Part shown: piece after piece, positions 1-55,340 of the stretch | Position numbering within the stretch: position 1 is the stretch's first letter | How the letters are laid out: each line of letters opens with the position of its first letter | Assembly (NCBI GenBank): GCA_020740775.1 | Contig: JAHEWK010000036.1 | Coordinates: 1 to 64,000 of the forward strand | From: Ilyonectria destructans | Lineage: Eukaryota; Ascomycota; Sordariomycetes; Hypocreales; Nectriaceae | DNA length: 64,000 bases | Direction of reading: 5' to 3' | Translations under genes and position numbers: made by a program | The notes under the pieces: generated by a model | Seen by the model: only the letters and a program-made list of their open reading frames with translations | Told to the model about the DNA's origin: nothing | The model's database searches: none

Positions 1-20
1 CACGTTAGATCAAGCGCATC

Positions 21-598
21 ATGCGCGTCCGTACCCGTCCGGGCGCGGACGGAACCGCTTACTACAACACTCTCAACCTAAAGCGGGGTGCCAATTGTGA
101 CGCGGCCTTCCACCATCTGTACGGCAACTTACGGTCCGGAACGGACGCGTGCGGCCCATGCCAGAGGGGTTTGGGCCCGTTCGACAGCTGCGTTCAGATC
201 AATGGTGCCTGCGCGAACTGTCGCTACAACTCCGCGGCTAAGCGCTGCACTCTCTACGGTACGTACGCCCCCGTTTGCCCCCGTTCTTCCCCGTTCTAGC
301 CAGTTCGCTCCCGTTCTGACATATTTTTTTAGTCAAGGACGGAGATGCTAAGCCTAGGGGTAAGAAGCGCGGCCGTAAGCGTAAGGCCCTTGATGATGAC
401 GATGACATTCTTGACGCCATCCGTTCCGTCCCCCTCAAGCACCTCCGTACGCTCGCGGACGTCTTTAATAAGGTCGCCGACGATGTTGAGGACGAGACTG
501 GTATGTACATCCCCATCCATCCCCGTACGGGAGCGTGCAGGCCCGTACAGCTTTGAACGGAGGGCTAACTTTTTCCAGATGAGTCTGATTCTGATTAA
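21..598 (+). CDS. Small Cys-rich DUF3716-type protein of element 1
   Basis: A 141-residue protein read from three exons, 21-258, 333-500 and 579-598, joined by introns with GT...AG ends. ATG 21 is the first Met after an in-frame TAG at 6-8. Residues about 40-80 carry the Cys pattern of fungal DUF3716: ACGPC, then GLGPF-SCV, GACANC and a final Cys after a short basic stretch. This pattern suggests metal binding. It is followed by a lysine/arginine-rich nuclear-localisation-like patch (GKKRGRKRK), an Asp run and an acidic tail ending DESDSD. Function is unknown. Its place beside an integrase and its basic patch suggest a DNA- or chromatin-binding accessory factor, which is inference. The exon boundaries fit well; the family assignment is from memory of the motif. 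Confidence 0.7.
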
Positions 599-984
599 GT
601 CATTTTCGTTGGCGTTCAGGACAGTATACCCCGCGACCGGCCCCGTCTGGCTTCGCATGGTCGGTTGGCATCACGTTTTTGGAAAGGGTTTTTGACATAC
701 CGTTCTTGTCTGCACACTTTTTTTCTTTTTGGGGGGGGGGGATGGACGAACAGGCCTGTTCGGGAATGTGAGCTCCTCCTGTTCATTCATAACCGTTTTG
801 GTCTTTCGGTATTTCAGATAGTCCGGCTCCGTACGGGGGGTTTCGCCACCGTACGGCCCAGAAATGGACCTTATACTCTTTATTTTTCCTTCCCCTACGC
901 ATTTGATTCTGTCTTAACATTTTATTATTTATTCATTGAAATATCTTCTATACGCCCCCGAACGTCCCCGAACACGCCGATCTA
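599..984 (+). promoter_or_regulatory. Upstream region of the element 1 integrase
   Basis: 386 bp between the DUF3716-type gene and the integrase start. It has no coding potential I can support. It holds a run of ten G at about 731-740, A/T-rich stretches at 885-950 and several CCGTWC-type motifs (for example at 828-856). Presumably the integrase promoter, by position only. Confidence 0.35.
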
Positions 985-2651
985 ATGCCACGACAGAGGA
1001 TCGATCTCGAGCCCTACCGAGAACAAATCCGTGGGAAATGGCAACTACGCTGGACGAACGCGGCCTTATGCGAATGGCTCCGGACGGATTTGAACGTTCC
1101 CGTTTCCGATACTACCTTGAAGCGCTTTCTTCGAATCTGGGGCTTCCAACGTGAGGGCCGTACGGAAGTGACTGACGCCCTCCGGGACCGTTTACGCTTC
1201 CACTTCTTCGAACACTACCTTACGGACGAACGGTTGCTCCAAGTGCTACAATCTGAGGGGTTTTCTATTACCCAAAAAGGCCTCGTACGGCTACGGCAAG
1301 AGATGGACCTCCGAAAGCGGCATACTCGAGAGGAAAACATTACCCTGCGAGAACAAGCCATCGGTCGTATCGCCCAAGCGGTTGATCCAACGCGCCGTTT
1401 GGCAGGTTACGGGCGTGAATACCTCCGAACGGAGCTGCGCCAGCAAGGATTCTCTACAAGCCGAGATGTCCTTTACTCTGCCTACAAAGAAGTCCACCAA
1501 AGGAGCTTCCGAGACCGGCTGGACGAGTTCAGACGGCGCCGTACGGGCTGGACCTGCCCTGGGCCTAACTTTATCTGGTCTATCGATGCGTACGATAAAT
1601 TAAAGCCGTACGGCTTTGAGATCTACGCTGGGATTGACGCCTACTCGAGATATATCCCTTGGTTTTTCGTTGGCTTTAATACGCACACGTCTATCGGCGT
1701 TGGCCTCCAATACCTCTCGATCATTCGCGAACGTGGCTTTACGCCGCGGATTATACGGGCTGATCGTGGGAAGGAAACTCCGGTTGTTGCTGGCCTCCAT
1801 TGGTATCACTCGAGTCACACCGGGCGCGAACGGATACAACCGCTCACGGGCGAGGCCGTACCGATCAAGTTCAAGGACTGTTTTGTATACGGCAAGAGCA
1901 TCCACAACGTCAAGATCGAGAGCTGGTGGAATCGTCTTTGTAAAGGCCGTTCGCAGTTCTGGCGGGTAAGATACTATTATACGCCCCCGAGTACCCCTAA
2001 ACACCTCCGTACTGACATGTTTAGACGGTCTTTGGAACCCTACATACAGTAGGGCTTTTCGAACCCAGTCATATCTACGATCAGATTGCCCTTCTCTATA
2101 TATATATGGAACCCTTAGATACGGACCTGCGCGGCTTCGTACGGGTATGGAATAACCATTACATCCGTAAACAGCCCAACCGACCTCATGTTGTCCCTGG
2201 GGTCCCGTACGTCCTCTTTCACCACCCCGAACAGTCCAGTACGGAGGATTACGGGGAGCCAATCATTCCAGCCGTACTAGAGGAGATGGAGGAGCTTCTT
2301 GGTCATAGATCATTCGATCTATCGTTGTATCTCTCTGCCGAGGTATTGGCGCTCTGCAAGTCCGTACTCAGCCGTTCGGTCAGGGATGGGAGCGAACAGC
2401 GCCGTGTAAATGGTGTCGATATTCCTCTTTATCGCTCGTACATTTACTTACGTGAACAACTTGAGGATCACTATAAATCCGGAGTCGACCCACGATTACA
2501 CCTCCAGGAGCCGCCAACTGGAGGTATTCGACATCTAGAGGACGAGCTGAGGACACGAGGATTTGATCTGGACGGGCATGTTCGTGGGGGAACGGACGAT
2601 TCCGATAACGAATGGGATGTAAATTCGGAGACAGGGTCAGCTCGAAACTAG
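985..2651 (+). CDS. DDE integrase/transposase, element 1
   Basis: Two exons, 985-1965 and 2025-2651, with a 59-bp intron whose removal restores frame; 535 residues. The N-terminal ~115 residues look like helix-turn-helix units (MPRQRIDLE start, repeated DTTLKRFLR-type helices). An integrase-like catalytic core follows from about residue 190: D201 in WSID, D260 in RADRG and E312 in KIESWW, spaced 58 and 51 residues. The conserved run GF-IYAGIDAYSR marks the core. The C-terminal ~200 residues are of unknown fold with an acidic end. It would cut and join element DNA in the nucleus. It is clearly related to the integrase at 47.2-49.1 kb, with the same 58-residue D-D spacing. No catalytic residue is missing, so it may be active. 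This is not a Tc1, hAT or MULE type core. Confidence 0.85.
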
Positions 2652-2654
2652 CTA

Positions 2655-3896
2655 TCAAGCGAGGTCTGTAGTCTCCAGAAAGGCCTGTTCAGAACCTTTC
2701 GCGTGCGAACGTGTACCCTTGAATACTTCGAAGGGGTCGGACTGCAAAGGGTTATCCCCAAAGGGATCTTCGCAATCGTCGTCTATACTACATCCTTCAG
2801 ATGTCCGCCGAACAGGCTTGTCCGTCCCGTCCTTGACCTTTACCCCCCGGACGGGGCCGTTCATCTCCGCTTTGACTGAATCCTGTTGAGTTGACCCGCT
2901 GGCCTCGGCCTTGACCGGTATGGCTACCTTCTTGTTGACCTTCTGTACTGGCCCATCCGCTTCCGTTTTGATTCGTTTGGCTGTTGAAGTAGACCGTTTC
3001 TCGACCTTGACTGTAATACTAGCCAGTGACTCGGACGTATTGCGCTTACGTCCTTGTGGCTGGGCCAGTACGGTCCTTTTCCCCTTCGTACTGACCCTTT
3101 CATCCCGTTCTGGTTGTTCGGCCGAGATGCCAGTACGTAGGTGTAGGCGGATTTCCGACCGAGGTAGAAGTCCTGTCTGCAACAGGAATGCCCATAGCTG
3201 AGTGGACTCGTACGCCGCCTCACAGAACCGAACGTTCAAGTTCAGGCTTAGTGGCTTCCCATCGATAGGAATAGCTGTCCACTCCCGTTCAGCTAGTTTC
3301 GCCCACTCCCCCGAGTTCGAGAAGAACCGTTTGATGATGGCGGACATCAACTGCTGGTGTGTATCCGTTTCCAGGGCCGTACTGAACTGTACGGCCATCG
3401 GAAACCTATGTACGGCCATGACGTCGAACCACTCAAGAGTCTCGATACCACCAGACTCGGCCGTACAGTAATTCCCAGCGTACAAGTACAACGAAATCCC
3501 GATCTTACGGGGCTGCATAAGCTCCGTACTACTCCGTTCGGCCTTACTCTTGTCGTTCTGAATGCTAGTCTGGCGGGCTTTATCAGCTTCTCGAAGAGCA
3601 GAAGAGAAAGCGGTTGCGCCGGCTCGATGAGTAGACACCGCGGGCGACTCGGCGTTTGAGGCGTACAGTGCCGGTTGGGGGCGTTCGGTCGCTTTAAAGG
3701 CCTTTCGGGTTCGGTCGGGTAGGTTCTGGAAGTCCACCTCTTCAAGGTCATCGTCATCGTCAGAGGAAGTGTTGGAGGGCTTGTCGGCTAGGAGGGTGCC
3801 ACAATACGGACAGGAGACCCAAGAGGGGTTATCCCGTAAGATCGTGGCATGTTGAGTACGGGCCCGGCCGGGGCAGTACAGAAGAGTTGGGGCCAT
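2655..3896 (-). CDS. CPYCG-finger protein of element 1
   Basis: An uninterrupted 413-residue reading frame convergent with the integrase; the two stop codons are 3 nt apart. The N-terminus has a Cys at residue 8 and CPYCG about 25 residues later, a likely zinc knuckle (pairs C-P and CPYCG). A Ser/Asp-rich linker follows, then at roughly 145-265 a folded-looking domain beginning RKIGISLYLY. The C-terminal 150 residues are Lys/Glu-rich and disordered, with repeated VKAE/VK-DG-type stretches. The counterpart at 46.0-47.2 kb shares the finger, the linker style and an RKIS-type domain start. Function unknown. Its fixed partnership with the integrase suggests a mobility cofactor, which is inference. 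Confidence 0.75.
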   Translation of the reverse strand: MAPTLLYCPGRARTQHATILRDNPSWVSCPYCGTLLADKPSNTSSDDDDDLEEVDFQNLPDRTRKAFKATERPQPALYASNAESPAVSTHRAGATAFSSALREADKARQTSIQNDKSKAERSSTELMQPRKIGISLYLYAGNYCTAESGGIETLEWFDVMAVHRFPMAVQFSTALETDTHQQLMSAIIKRFFSNSGEWAKLAEREWTAIPIDGKPLSLNLNVRFCEAAYESTQLWAFLLQTGLLPRSEIRLHLRTGISAEQPERDERVSTKGKRTVLAQPQGRKRNTSESLASITVKVEKRSTSTAKRIKTEADGPVQKVNKKVAIPVKAEASGSTQQDSVKAEMNGPVRGVKVKDGTDKPVRRTSEGCSIDDDCEDPFGDNPLQSDPFEVFKGTRSHAKGSEQAFLETTDLA

Positions 3897-3945
3897 AACG
3901 AATTATGATAGATCTAGGACATTGCGTTAAATGAAGAGGGATAAA

Positions 3946-4017
3946 TGTGCGAGCGGCCCGTCTGGGGGCGAACGGCCACGTAAATGCTCGTCCGCGCCCG
4001 GACGGGCCGCTCGCACA
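3946..4017. repeat. Hairpin near right end of element 1
   Basis: A perfect inverted repeat: 17-bp arms at 3,946-3,962 (TGTGCGAGCGGCCCGTC) and 4,001-4,017 around a 38-nt loop. It lies where the GWACGG motif density ends. The segment 3,989-4,006, overlapping the right arm, is the exact reverse complement of 34-51 near the left side. It could be a terminal recognition structure. Confidence 0.7.
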
Positions 4018-4020
4018 CAT

Positions 4021-5282
4021 TTTCAAATACCTTTAGGTAGTAGGGTGTACATGGATATTGATTAATCCATATACTCAGGGGGGTCGGCGGCAAGGGTGGT
4101 GTGGGGTGGGGTCCCTGTATTGACGAAAATGGATGGAAAATGCGTTTTGACCCAGTGCTAGATATAGCCTTCCGTAACCAGCCCCGCCATTACAGGTAGG
4201 TGGCATGCAGAGTATCCCCTATCCGGCGCGGTCGCTCGCAGTAACACGTACCTCAGCAAGCCAATTGAGATGCTCGTAAACACGCTGGTCTCTGCGTAAG
4301 AATCATATTCATACTAGTTACGATATAGTCACCGAATCTACCGTGCTGAGAGCTTCCGTCTGGTATCAATTCCATCATGATCAGAGATATATTCCCGAAT
4401 CGTCGATTTACCGTCGAAAGACCGATATCAGTGACGTGGCGCAGTCAGCCTATGGTTACCGTCAATACGAGAGAACCACCCAAAGCCCAGATTAAGCCAA
4501 GTCCAGTCCGCTTGAAAGATGTTTGTCTCTCAAGCATTTTCGTCCACTCTCGCTGTCCCATGTCATATCGGGTTTATTGACGAAGACGGGAGTCCGCTGG
4601 TCTCGTGGACCTGCGCCCGAGCCAAAATACACCCCTGGAGGGATGTGCCAGCGACTTCGCAGATCCCCCGCAAACCTTCACGTGGAGGCTCAACTTCCGA
4701 GCCCCCCCCGGTTCAACCTTACGTGCGCAAGCTGAAGAACGAACTCAAGAATCAATTTTAATCAGACACCAGGCTGGCGCGAGAAGAGCGCGAAACTGGC
4801 TCGGGTGGAACAGTGTAACAACGATCCAAGGTTATTCGTGAGGCATGACAGGATGTTGGCCGTCAGCGGCCGGTCATTGGCCAGCGGGCTGTGAGCAGAG
4901 CCAAAGTGGGAAGTCGAAGGTGGGTCCAAGTTGTGGGCGCCATGCGGGCAGTTTCACGGTGGCCCTCAGACAGAGGAATCGGTTGGTTGCTGAGCACGGG
5001 GAGTGAGATCTTAAATGAGTTGGGTCACAGATGGAGGATCCAACGCCTCCAACGATTGGAAGTAGTTGGTTGATTACGCACCCTGCGGCTTGGCCCGAAT
5101 GGCTACCAAAAGTTATGTCTGGGTATTTGTACCCATCCACTCTTAAGTGTCCATAGGTAATGGTCGGAGAGAAAGTCTGCTACATAATCTCTGTGCCCAC
5201 CACCATCGAAGTCGCCAGACAATTCTCTCCCACCATGCTCTGTCATCACCACTCCTTCTGTCTATTTGCCATCTCCTGAATC
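4021..5282. other. No gene recognised
   Basis: About 1.26 kb between element 1 and the hAT relic. Only short, overlapping open frames are present, in several frames at once around 4,380-4,840, with no recognisable domain. I see no tRNA, array or clear inverted repeat. Confidence 0.5.
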
Positions 5283-45652: not shown

Positions 45653-45682
45653 CTACGGTCGCACATTACCACATGGGTGACA
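45653..45682 (+). repeat. Left terminal inverted repeat of element 2
   Basis: 30 bp, identical to the reverse complement of 49,711-49,740. It begins CTACGGTCGCACATTACC and ends GGGTGACA; AACC follows after one mismatch. Confidence 0.9.
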
Positions 45683-45706
45683 TAACCCTTTTGGGAAGCC
45701 TCAACC

Positions 45707-45892
45707 ATGTGGAAATACTTAGTAATTTTGTGCCCCCCTTGCAAGACTACACGCACTATCCGGAAGGTATCTCTTCATTTAGATGGCATCCCCACCAGGG
45801 AATATGTCGTGATAATTCCTGGTGACGCGTCACAATTCTTCCACTCACACATCCATACCAGCGTCAATACCCAGCGCATCGCCACCCCATAG
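45707..45892 (+). CDS. Small frame inside element 2
   Basis: A 61-residue frame, MWKYLVILCPPC then SLHLDGIPTREYVVIIPGD. It sits between the left TIR and the CPYCG gene, about where element 1 would have promoter sequence. It has a CPPC pair and some basic residues but matches nothing I recognise, and it is not a DUF3716 protein. It may be chance. Confidence 0.25.
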   Translation: MWKYLVILCPPCKTTRTIRKVSLHLDGIPTREYVVIIPGDASQFFHSHIHTSVNTQRIATP

Positions 45893-45978
45893 CTGTTATG
45901 GGCTATCCCCATCCATTCCCTAAGTAAGCTCGGGTCTATCCATCATGAGATTGTGCGACTGACCTTGTCTTGTACGTA

Positions 45979-47230
45979 GATATGCCCGATCATGTCCTAT
46001 CGCAGACATGTCCCGATGTTCCGAAGACCGTGGCCCCTAAATCGTACCAACGGAGCCACGATTTCATCCGCGATAGCTACCCAGGGTCGAATCTGTGTCC
46101 ATATTGCGGGAGACGTTGGCCCACGAGTATCTCCATCCTCGACAGCTCGCCAGTCCCGTTTCGAGACGTTGAGACAGCTTCCACCTCCTCCGCTATACAG
46201 TCTATCGACCTAACAGCCTCTGATCGTTCCACGCCCTCACAGACGATCTTCACCGGCTCTGGAGACGGCCCTGGCCGTATCCTCGCAGCATCGCGGCCTC
46301 CGCCGTGTATCGAGATGCCAAACTTACCCAGAGTCGGATCGCGAGGGGCATGAGGGCGAGCTCGTCGAAACTCAGTGAGGCTGTGGCTAAACAGAGCCAA
46401 AACAAGAGCAGACGAAAGATCTCGATGCGCCTCACCGTCTTCCTTGCGAGGCCTGACCCATGGGAAACACTAGACGAAGACGAGGAGCCCCAGTGGTCTT
46501 TGGCTAGAGAGCTGCTGAAGGTCGCTTTGCGCCCCTTCGTCGACGAGGAACCATCTTTACCTGTCCACTTCTGGTTCGACAGCATCTTCTTCCCTCAGTT
46601 CAAGGACAAGCCTGCCCTCTCTTCTGTTCTTCAATTCGACAAGAGACTCGTTCAGAACGCCCATATTAAAGAGGGTATCACGGAGCTGAGCGACCTCGAC
46701 TGGGAGAGACAGACAGTTGCAGAGCTTTTCAGCGAGGACTGCCCTTTTCGTTTCAGTAAAACAGAGGGCAGATATCTCCTTTTCCTTGTTTTCTATGAGC
46801 CATTGCCTCCTCGACCACAAGTCCCGGCCCCTCGTCATATCAAGACACCGAGGTCAGCCGTAAAGCCGTTCAAAAAGGAGAAGGGAATCAAGAAGAGTTA
46901 GTCAAGGCCGAGGTGAAGGTACAGCCAGCCTTGTTAATCGGGAGCGAGTTCAACTCGCCCTCCTTGAGCCTCTCTCTGAGCCCAGCTCTACCTCCTTTGA
47001 GAGCTAGCGCAGAAGACCAGATCGAGGTTATTACTAGCGACGTGGACGAGACCCACGCGGGTCAGAAACGAGCTCGAGACTCTATAAGCTCAGCACTCTC
47101 GGTAGAGGCAGAGGATAAGGAGCTCTCGGCTGGCCCTGCCTTCACTGCCCATGGTCCCGCTGCTGGAACCCGAGGAGTTGATACGAGGAGGCCAAGTAGT
47201 CGGCATCCTCGTAAACAGACGAGGAAATAG
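45979..47230 (+). pseudogene. CPYCG-finger protein of element 2, frame-broken
   Basis: The first frame, ATG 45,979, gives CPD then after about 34 residues NLCPYCGRRW, matching the finger of the element 1 protein. It ends at 46,353. From about 46,221 the sister frame carries the folded domain (RRKISMRLTVFL, LPVHFWFDSIFF, ELSDLDWERQTVAELF) to 46,901. Near an A5 run at 46,873 a further frame leads on (EELVKAEVKVQPALL ... ) to a Lys/Arg-rich end at 47,230, three bases from the integrase stop. Either two indels broke the gene or short introns bridge the frames. The domain order equals that of the element 1 protein, so the join is likely genuine. Confidence 0.65.
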
Positions 47231-47233
47231 TAG

Positions 47234-49078
47234 TTACTCTAGCTCAAGGTGACCCAGGTCCCCCATCAGCTCGTCCACACTATTGATAATATCGCCAGGT
47301 AGCTCAGTTCCAGAGAGGCCATTGTTAATAGGCTCAAGGTAGTTCTGCTCGAGGAGCTGAAGCTAAAGCATTGTCAGCTAGCTTTTGAGTGCGATGGAGT
47401 ACTTTTTTACGTACGAATCTCTCTTGCCCTCCAACTGGACTCTCTGGGATGCTCAGCACCGGACTTGCCCCGCAGTCGAGATGAACCTGAATCTTGTCTC
47501 TAAGCCGTAAGTAGATTGCGAGGTGTGGTCGCTTATGATCAAGCTCCCCATCTAGCTGACCATCGAACTGAAGATCCCGGAGCTGTTGATCACACCAGTC
47601 CGTTGTTATTGGGTCAAGAAGATCGTCTATATCGATAGAATCGACAGCAGCCATCATCTGGGTAAGCCCATCTCGAGCCGCAGGCCCTAGATGGACTGCC
47701 CAGTTCTCCACTTCGCTTGTATTATACAGATCCATCGGGATCCCGGCGACGAGATGCTCCCTATTCTTCTGTGGTCGGATGCGATGGCCGTTCCACATCT
47801 CCGTGAAGTCCGCAATCTCTTGACGGATCATGGGTCCATAGAGAGCATACACCGCGATCTGGTGAGCAAGACGGTTTGGTTGGAAGAGGCCGCTATCAAT
47901 CAGCTCGTGTGAGAACGCGATCCAGCGCTGACTGACACCTTTGAGTAGCTTTTCCCACCAAGACTCGATCCGTTGGTTCGATGTGCTTGGGCCCCAGATA
48001 TGACAAGAGCTCAGTCTCGCTCCCTGCCTGTGGACTCGTTGGTTGTTATCCTCGGTGGTATACTGAAACTCTGTCTGATCAAGGTCGGCGAGAATCGCCT
48101 GGGCTCCGGCCCAAAGAGGAGTCTCGATACCATGATCCGAGCGGGTGAAAAGGGGGCGGACCCCTGAGTACGACACGGTCCGTAGAAACTGTTTGAGTGA
48201 ACTCAGCGCAGTCATGTTCCCCCTGCCGACATATATCCAGATGATGGCTCTCGAGTACGTGTCGATACAGGCGTAGATAGAGAAGCCGAAGTTCTTGACC
48301 TTCTCGTACCCATCGAGAGACCACATGAAGTTAGGCCCAGGAACCTGGAAGTGTTGAAATGAGCATGTTATGTTTTTTGAAGAAGAAGAAAACTAGCGCT
48401 AACCAGCGGAAGCTATTGACAAGAAGACATCCACATCCCAGCCACCAATGGATCGGAATAGCCATTAATCCGTTAAACGACGGATCTCAATAGGAAGTTC
48501 TTCCGGTGCTTCCAATCAGCAAGGCGTCTTTGTTCGACCCGCTTCTTCCACTCTGGGTTCGTTTGATACTCGCGATATAAGGTATTCTGGCCGACAAGGA
48601 CGCCGGCACGGATGCGGACGTAGTGGTATAGATACCCCCTGCCAAATCCTCTGATGCTTGAAGACTGACGGTCGTCTTGGAAGAGGAACTCTCTTGCTTT
48701 TTGAATAGCCTCCTGTCGTTCAGCCAGATCTCGGAAGCGCCGCTTCATGCCATGCTTCAGACGATACTCCTGTACAGTCCGCTCGGAGATCTCGATGCCG
48801 CGTCGCTTGAGATCACGGACGATGGAAGTGTCGCTATATCCGTATCGGTAGAAGTAGCCTTTGATCAGCTCGACGAAGGTGTTGGTATCAATCTTTGAGT
48901 GAAGGGGGGAGTACTCCTGGGCACCCCATTCCGCTAACCTCCTTTTCAGGGTTCTGACGTCGAGTACATGCCCATCGTCGCGGAGATGGGCACATATAGT
49001 GTCAATGGATAGTCCTTCTCGCCGCTGCTCGAGGATCCAGTCCTTGACGCGCTCCAAGTCCTTACGGGGCCTCGGCAT
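47234..49078 (-). CDS. DDE integrase/transposase, element 2
   Basis: Three exons on the minus strand: 49,078 to about 48,480, 48,344-47,415 and 47,362-47,234. The last intron is 52 bp with clear GT...AG ends and restores frame; the first is less certain (its donor would be GTCGTT). About 550 residues. The MPRPRKDLERV start and helix-turn-helix units parallel element 1. The core reads GPNFMWSLDGYEKVKNFG, IYACIDTYSRAI, TRSDHGIETP and NQRIESWWEK, with catalytic D, D and E spaced 58 and 56 residues. The C-terminal third holds PMIRQEIADFTEMWNGHR. All catalytic residues are present. It would act on the 30-bp TIRs, by inference. Confidence 0.85.
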
Positions 49079-49241
49079 TGTGCGAGACGCAGACCAGGGG
49101 TTCGAGATCGTGGTAGAGGTCGGAGTTCATACCTCCTTCCAAGGCTTCCAGCTGCAATATCCCGCCCCCTCTGAACCGGCATTATCGGAGCTTCGGCGCC
49201 GATGGAATGGCATCAACACCGATGGAATGGCATCAGCCAGC

Positions 49242-49561
49242 GCTCCTAATAGTGCAGACCGTTTGGACTATTAGTCCAGACTGCAATCCAAGATCAATAA
49301 TTAATCCACGACGGGCGTCCGTGGATTGACGACTAGGATGATGCGTCCCTTGAAACGAGCCTTGTTGATGTGGATCGCACCAGTAAATTGATCATAAATA
49401 TCCAAAACAACATGGTTGGCACAGCAACAATCACGGGTACCCTGGTTTTGTAACACCATGCCAACAACCTAGCGTACTTAGCGTCCACGCCGGGCGTCCG
49501 TATTCCCTGCCCTGATCTGCAGTCTGGACTAATAGTCTAAACGGTCTGCACTATTAGGAGC
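49242..49561 (+). mobile_element. 320-bp MITE, copy 1 (nested in element 2)
   Basis: Terminal inverted repeats of about 45 bp starting GCTCCTAATAGTGCAGACC, with few mismatches. Noncoding. Copy 2 is at 54,790-55,109 in the opposite orientation, same length and nearly identical by eye, so both moved recently. No exact target duplication is evident; nearby GGCATCAGC repeats confuse the flank here. Confidence 0.9.
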
Positions 49562-49710
49562 CCTGGCATCAGCGCCGCTTGGTATGGCATCAGCTCTGCT
49601 ACATTGAAAACAGTGCGCTATCATATCAATACTGTAGCCCCATATAAAAACGCCGAAAGCCTATGTGCGAAATAGATCCAGTCATTTTCGTACATGGTTT
49701 TGTCACCCAT

Positions 49711-49740
49711 GTGGTAATGTGCGACCGTAGACAGGAAAGC
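49711..49740 (-). repeat. Right terminal inverted repeat of element 2
   Basis: 30 bp, the reverse complement of 45,653-45,682. Ends ...GCGACCGTAG at 49,740. Confidence 0.9.
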
Positions 49741-54571: not shown

Positions 54572-54789
54572 TTTATTACCCTACACCTTTGGCTGACGAG
54601 CTCTGAATGGCCTCGGCACTCCTAGGCTGCCGCACAGGAAAACCCATAAATTACAGTATTTTAAGTAAATCAAGTTTGGGGCATCATAGACTTACTTGCT
54701 TGAAATATATTGGGCGGTTACTTGACTTGACTTACTTGATATACTTGACTTGATACTTGAATTGAGGTCAGCGCTGCATCGAGGGCAGG

Positions 54790-55109
54790 GCTCCTAATAG
54801 TGCAGACCGTTTAGACTATTAGTCCAGACTGCAGATCAGGGCAGGGAATACGGACGCCCGGCGTGGACGCTAAGTACGCTAGGTTGTTGGCATGGTGTTA
54901 CAAAACCAGGGTACCCGTGATTGTTGCTGTGCCAACCATGTTGTTTTGGATATTTATGATCAATTTACTGGTGCGATCCACATCAACAAGGCTCGTTTCA
55001 AGGGACGCATCATCCTAGTCGTCAATCCACGGACGCCCGTCGTGGATTAATTATTGATCTTGGATTGCAGTCTGGACTAATAGTCCAAACGGTCTGCACT
55101 ATTAGGAGC
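54790..55109 (-). mobile_element. 320-bp MITE, copy 2
   Basis: Inverse-orientation copy of 49,242-49,561, same length and nearly identical, with the same GCTCCTAATAGTGCAGACC ends. Noncoding. Confidence 0.9.
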
Positions 55110-55340
55110 GCTGATCGAGGGGTGAAGAAATTCCGGACCATGGGTTTGAACGGCAATCCCAACTCTGCAGAGAACACAGCAACATCTATCGGGCTCATAT
55201 CCTGTTGGGGAACAATCATGTATTGGAAGAACTACCAACCCGAGTCGTTGGAGGTCAGGCCCGGCCAGTAGACTTCAAGGCTTCTGCCCAGACCCCCGAT
55301 TAATTGCGCAACGACTTCTCTCTATTGTCCCGTTTCCCGG

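Follow-up and report, generated by a model that had tools for sequence, protein, structure and literature searches.

Why does a gene for a DDE integrase lie packed together with two others, one for a cysteine-rich protein of the DUF3716 type and one for a protein with a CPYCG finger, and what kind of element do the three make up? The question is raised by the first 4 kb of a 64,000-nucleotide stretch of the genome of the fungus Ilyonectria destructans (assembly GCA_020740775.1, contig JAHEWK010000036.1, positions 1 to 64,000; hereafter the window), which an initial annotation, made from the sequence alone, described as a compact element of a kind not known to have been reported. We searched the whole assembly (71.67 Mb in 74 contigs; the window opens contig C30), sorted at least 120 integrase matches by identity and, in each of eight groups, designated families F1 to F8, read at least one member. 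The locus is very probably a cut-and-paste transposon of the IS3EU superfamily, with the accessory genes as parts of the element. It represents a fungal IS3EU lineage with a constant two-gene core, consisting of the transposase and an unnamed CxxCG protein, and with a recruited DUF3716 gene.

Genes and ends of the element

Comparison of copies places the window element in family F1 and assigns it positions 1–4176 of the plus strand. All three of its genes had been recognized correctly at the outset. The transposase gene (985–2651, plus strand) starts with an ATG at 985 and has a single intron (1966–2024) between its two exons (985–1965 and 2025–2651), giving a spliced product of 535 amino acids that matches the integrase core family rva_4 of Pfam (E = 1e-11), with weak helix-turn-helix matches below the cut-off. 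Its residues D201, D260 and E312 are invariant in an alignment of the eight families. The F1 transposase by itself found no sequence match in PDB at E values up to 1, and a profile of the eight families gave a weak match only, to TnsB (E = 0.0096). Upstream lie the 3' exons of the DUF3716 gene (9–598, plus strand; exons at about 9–258, 333–500 and 579–598), of which the exon at 9–258 carries the domain itself (PF12511, E = 3.5e-11). Its exon joins were placed by eye, and two of them agree with an Ilyonectria protein (P0004); the first exons fall to the left of the window and are visible in the copy on contig C13. The third gene (2655–3896, minus strand) converges on the transposase gene and encodes a 413-amino-acid protein with an N-terminal C..H..CPYCG finger that matches no Pfam family over the cut-off. 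Across 28 sequences of this CxxCG protein, the first cysteine, the CxxC and the glycine are kept in at least 90%, with a histidine or a tyrosine between. A profile built on the CxxCG protein had no significant match in PDB (RNA polymerase subunit P appeared at E = 1.8), and NCBIfam returned no match for either partner protein. With their cysteine arrangements, C..H/Y..CxxCG in one and CX2CX9CX6-10CX2CX8C in the other, both accessory proteins probably bind zinc; they probably bind DNA or chromatin as well.

The limits of the element differ from the span of 1 to 4,020 first proposed. On the right, eight copies with different flanks share an end at position 4176, where the terminal inverted repeat (4143–4176, minus strand) reads TACGGAAGGCTATATC... 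inward. On the left the element is incomplete, and its DUF3716 gene lacks the 5' part, because contig C30 begins inside the element. The missing end can be read in three other F1 copies (on contigs C13, C24 and C26), which start with TACGGACGGCTATATCTAGCACTGGGTCAAAACG, matching the right end in inverted orientation. The full copy (C24:144467–149823) measures 5,357 bp and has terminal inverted repeats of about 34 bp, TACGG..CCGTA. It lies between GGGGGG repeats, a 6-bp target-site duplication, and the matching empty site, with seven G, is seen in a copy of its target inside another repeat (L046). The C26 copy has GAAGAC at both flanks; no flanking target-site duplication was found for the C13 copy. 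Over 1–4176 the window copy does not differ from the C13 copy, and the two stand at different genomic sites, a sign of recent mobility. In the mechanism that we propose, the transposase would bind the inverted repeats and move the element by cut-and-paste on its TACGG ends.

Seven of the eight families (F1–F6 and F8) have TACGG ends at both sides, and F7 was found to have it at the right end only. The TA..TA termini thus lie within terminal inverted repeats, as in IS3EU/GingerRoot elements, and the DDE integrase-type core with its rva_4 match is likewise a feature of that group. Published IS3EU elements are described as having termini of the form TA..TA and duplications that are usually 6 bp long (PMC10045372). 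Of the 28 copies with both ends read, 8 are flanked by exact 6-bp target-site duplications: 2 of 3 in F1, 1 of 8 in F5 and 5 of 12 in F8, with none in F2 (0 of 2), F3, F4 or F6 (0 of 1 each); the usual length is present in part of the copies. Several points weigh against the assignment to IS3EU. It is founded on the ends, the duplication length and the DDE/rva_4 type rather than on a tree; the remaining 20 of the 28 copies have no exact 6-bp duplication; and 5-bp duplications occur in F3 (ATCTC) and F6 (CATGT), both read by eye, and in F4 (GCAGC on both sides). Copy exchange or assembly joins may explain part of the absent duplications. Two F5 copies that are 99.6% identical (L050, C38:51500-58500, and L052, C16:888000-894500) have reciprocally swapped duplications, CACTGG/CACGGG, and between contigs C15 and C18 a pair of F8 ends shows a crosswise match, which points to exchange between copies or assembly joins.

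Some further features of F1 copies deserve mention. Inside the right end of the window element is a 72-bp imperfect inverted repeat (3946–4017; 80.6% self-match on the opposite strand) that could form a hairpin. In another copy (L017) the DUF3716 gene is interrupted, at about 140–560, by some 420 bp whose inverted ends are CTAGGGATGC-like and which show a GTCCGTA repeat, both placed by eye; this insert resembles a short non-autonomous transposon. In three copies (L020, L021 and L023) stops are frequent in the integrase frame, and the G+C content is 0.46–0.48, compared with 0.53–0.55 in the closest copies of the window element. Their decay is compatible with old repeat-induced point mutation (RIP), although the RIP indices give no clear sign of it. 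Finally, contigs C29 and C30 both start near or inside such elements (integrase matches at C29:385 and C30:964), and assembly breaks may therefore fall in these repeats.

A two-gene core and a recruited DUF3716 gene

Is the company of the three genes accidental? The initial annotation held that it is not, and reasoned that the claim would fall if the two partner genes were as common away from integrases. In this genome they are not. Among the matches listed, which are lower bounds for DUF3716, CPYCG and integrase alike, 46 of 53 DUF3716 matches have a related integrase match no more than 5 kb away, and the zone so defined makes up 1.8% of the genome. Thirty-seven of these 46 are upstream on the same strand, at 0.95 to 1.5 kb from the integrase, eight are downstream on the opposite strand and one is downstream on the same strand. 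The F1 CPYCG protein gave 20 listed matches, 18 of them within 5 kb of an integrase, where they sit 1.4–2.1 kb downstream in convergent orientation. The two without an integrase are on contigs C49 and C15, and the former looks like a truncated copy because it matches only window positions 2820–4176 within its fetched stretch. These figures rule out a chance neighbourhood of the three genes, and they give DUF3716, an uncharacterized domain, a genomic setting: 46 of its 53 listed matches adjoin these transposases.

The three genes are not equally constant. Listed matches place DUF3716 with 12 and CPYCG with all 15 of the integrase matches at 73% identity or more, DUF3716 with 29 and CPYCG with 2 (by the F1 query) of the 47 at 39–55%, and DUF3716 with 2 and CPYCG with 1 of the 58 below 39%. 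Diverged CxxCG genes are missed by the F1 CPYCG query and were revealed by reading open frames: a convergent CxxCG-finger gene is present in all eight families read, split over two frames in the F4 copy. DUF3716 was found in six of the eight, F1 to F6. Within these, F2 has an extra downstream DUF3716 gene besides the upstream one and F6 yielded a downstream one alone; no DUF3716 gene was found in F7 and F8. The core therefore consists of the transposase and the CxxCG gene, with DUF3716 an addition in part of the lineage.

The second element in the window (45,654–49,729, minus strand) bears on this point. It had been put forward, at 45.7–49.7 kb, as a diverged copy showing that all three genes travel together. 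The copy is real, and it contains a related integrase and a convergent CPYCG gene. It belongs to F8, a family of two genes only, and no DUF3716 gene was found in it by Pfam search or seen in another family member (L055). As evidence for the trio it was set aside; lacking DUF3716, it supports the two-gene core instead. In the window copy the integrase and the CPYCG gene are each split over several frames, and L055 has both as single long frames. Two 333-bp segments, at 49238–49570 and 54781–55113, also form an inverted repeat with 99% complementarity, one arm of which lies inside this F8 element.

Is the DUF3716 gene then a working part of the elements that have it, or host cargo captured passively and without a role? 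DUF3716 also occurs away from integrases, in frames of 274, 920 and 314 amino acids that look like host genes (L098, at C4:1034300-1036600, L097, on C2, and L099, on C74), and such genes are a possible source of the captured one. That F7 and F8 manage without DUF3716, and that the upstream gene of F2 is one cysteine short, also fits mere cargo. What speaks against it is conservation: the position and strand seen in 37 of the 46 near listed matches are kept in families whose transposases are 39–44% identical to that of F1, and none of the six cysteines varies across nine aligned sequences, the upstream copy of F2 not being among them. We therefore consider passive capture improbable and favour a function of DUF3716 within the element.

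Related proteins occur in other species as well. The closest named relatives of the element proteins are from Ilyonectria and Dactylonectria, and in Ilyonectria robusta the CxxCG and DUF3716 proteins have adjacent locus tags (AUP68_15176 and AUP68_15177). A profile of the CxxCG protein, scored on the 8000 candidates sharing most words, matches 39 database proteins, nearly all named hypothetical or uncharacterized. Their named sources are Ilyonectria, Dactylonectria, Fusarium, Metarhizium, Stachybotrys, Hirsutella, Pochonia, Purpureocillium, Beauveria and Colletotrichum, which we take to be all Hypocreales or Colletotrichum.

A short word scattered through some families

The F1 element is peppered with a short word that could be what its accessory proteins recognize. 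Positions 1–4174 contain CCGTAC or its complement GTACGG 31 times, where base-neighbour frequencies predict 3.0; the remaining 59,826 bases of the window contain it 13 times. The sites (29–3861, the last starting at 3856) are dispersed over genes, introns and spacers. The shorter CGTAC reaches 11.3 per kb in the element, compared with 1.64 in the rest of the window and 1.8–3.4 in eight other integrase (rve) loci. Coding constraint does not account for the excess in F1, as synonymous-codon shuffles rarely reach the observed CCGTAC count (2 of 1000 for integrase exon 1, 0 of 1000 for exon 2 and 1 of 1000 for the CPYCG gene). Over whole elements, the CGTAC count also stands far above dinucleotide shuffles in F3 (z = 11.2) and F5 (14.9), as it does in F1 (10.5).

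Zinc DNA- or chromatin-binding roles seem most likely for the DUF3716 and CxxCG proteins, and the likely target in F1 and the two other word-rich families would be the scattered CGTAC/CCGTAC word. Binding to it would keep the element expressed or guide transposition, and the expected preference would be for CGTAC/CCGTACGG in F1 and for CGTACGA in F5. DUF3716 is the favoured candidate for the reader. Fungal Zn2Cys6 clusters of the Gal4 type have the cysteine order CX2C..C..CX2C..C and recognize CGG/CCG; the six-cysteine order of DUF3716 is alike, and the element word, CCG-TA-CGG, is made of the triplets that such zinc-cluster proteins read. The pattern CX2CX9CX6-10CX2CX8C was recovered in DUF3716 exons of F1 to F6 (by a pattern search that covered F2 apart from its upstream copy). 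That the accessory proteins bind the scattered word is nevertheless a tentative proposal, which we would rate somewhat below an even chance.

Several observations weigh against it. CGTAC enrichment is weak in F6 (z = 3.4), F8 (2.5; 1.8 for the window copy) and F2 (2.2) and absent from F7 (-0.1) and F4 (-0.1, over 5.6 kb), so that F2, F4 and F6 carry DUF3716 despite weak or absent enrichment. A strict link between DUF3716 and CGTAC was accordingly not upheld: the word is strong in F1, F3 and F5, weak in F2 and F6 and absent in the DUF3716-bearing F4. The upstream DUF3716 of F2 has a tyrosine at the third cysteine. The domain also differs from Zn2Cys6 clusters in its first loop, which is X9 where theirs is about X6 and which has few basic residues. 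Six DUF3716 sequences had no Zn_clus match in Pfam at E values up to 10, a search in which the HMMER filters drop most weak matches, and DUF3716 had no sequence match in PDB. Membership of the Zn2Cys6 family, for which the cysteine order alone agrees, was rejected on the missing profile match.

The peppering might instead be a family-specific relic of mutation or codon usage, with no binding signal. That only three of the eight families show it strongly would be expected of such a relic. When the synonymous-shuffle test was repeated by family (the CPYCG genes of F3 and F4 excluded), no excess was seen in the integrases of F2, F3, F4, F6 and F7 or in the CPYCG genes of F2, F7 and F8, which again suits a relic; the F5 integrase was marginal (18 of 300). 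A relic is harder to reconcile with the excess in the F1 integrase (1 of 300) and in the CPYCG genes of F1 (0 of 300), F5 (0 of 300) and F6 (3 of 300); the F8 integrase also showed an excess (11 of 300). Nor do the F1 and F5 integrases have word positions in common (0 of 11), so both are word-rich at different places; both F3 sites coincide with F5 sites. Conservation of the word inside F1 is mixed. A copy that is 85% identical (L018) retains 23 of 27 window sites but 49% of other CpG hexamers, which a relic would not predict; compared with another at 86% (L016), 15 of 29 are kept, no better than other CpG hexamers (50%), which it would. The 98% identical copy (L012) keeps 28 of 29, against 91%. 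With the evidence so divided, we find a relic about as credible as the proposal that the word is bound, and neither probable.

A different possibility is that the accessory proteins aid transposition itself, by binding subterminal or internal sites and assembling the transposase complex, instead of counteracting silencing. The scattered GTACGG contains the element tip TACGG, and F5 is rich in CGTAC at its ends, with 8 sites in the first 500 bp and 10 in the last 500 bp. The CxxCG gene is moreover present in the two-gene families F7 and F8, where the word is absent or weak, so this partner seems to be needed apart from the word. The full F1 copy points the other way: the word is absent from its first 500 bp and occurs once in its last 357 bp, where end-binding factors would be expected. 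F5, for its part, favours CGTACGA and not the tip TACGG. A direct helper role is in our judgement rather unlikely, a little more so than a relic. The helper genes and the word that they may recognize offer a testable suggestion of how elements of this type remain active.

Comparison with known systems

IS3EU is already known, as are the form of its ends and the fact that it often carries accessory genes. The notion of an undescribed element must be narrowed to match, since the ends, duplication and transposase are those of IS3EU; what stands is the pairing with DUF3716, for which no published link to IS3EU was found: no paper in the collection searched contains the word DUF3716, and the 10 rows listed, of 554, for IS3EU with partner terms included nothing relevant. 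With IS3EU/GingerRoot in general (Repbase; Kojima & Bao 2023, PMC10045372) our elements share the DDE integrase-like transposase, the termini and the usual duplications, and the available portion of that account names no DUF3716 or CxxCG partner. In Colletotrichum lupini, IS3EU is reported to be the most abundant DNA transposon (PMC11645255).

Accessory genes of IS3EU elements have been published for rusts and Zymoseptoria (PMC12730594, PMC10853768). The TET-carrying IS3EU elements of rusts (Kojima 2025, PMC12730594) resemble ours in their TAYGG..CCRTA ends, terminal inverted repeats of more than 30 bp, 6-bp duplication and a partner gene convergent with the transposase. There, however, an alpha-kinase is the convergent partner and a TET/JBP gene lies between; here the convergent partner is the CxxCG protein, with DUF3716 upstream. 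Rust-type cargo was looked for in this genome and rejected: the one alpha-kinase match is not near a listed integrase match, and no TET/JBP match was found in a search run without a positive control. Styx of Zymoseptoria (PMC10853768), compared by description, is 7.9 kb long with four open reading frames, including DUF3577, and GATA/CCHC proteins.

The nearest functional analogue of the proposed word reading would be VANC of the Arabidopsis VANDAL elements (PMC5735166). VANC21 recognizes a short word whose density matters, so that in both cases an element-encoded protein would read a short word dense in its own element. The likeness is one of function only. VANDAL belongs to the MuDR/MULE superfamily and its words are often in tandem repeats; binding and demethylation by VANC were shown by experiment, whereas the F1 system is known from sequence. 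One may speculate, and we regard this as improbable in its full form, that a fungal branch of IS3EU took up DUF3716 as a divergent binuclear zinc domain. Together with the CxxCG protein it would bind the CGTAC word that some of these elements have gathered over genes and spacers, and would so shield the element from silencing by its host in a way that differs by family, making it a fungal counterpart of VANC in an unrelated superfamily. If an element protein does read CGTAC, plants and fungi would each have evolved, on their own, a sequence-specific self-marking of transposons.

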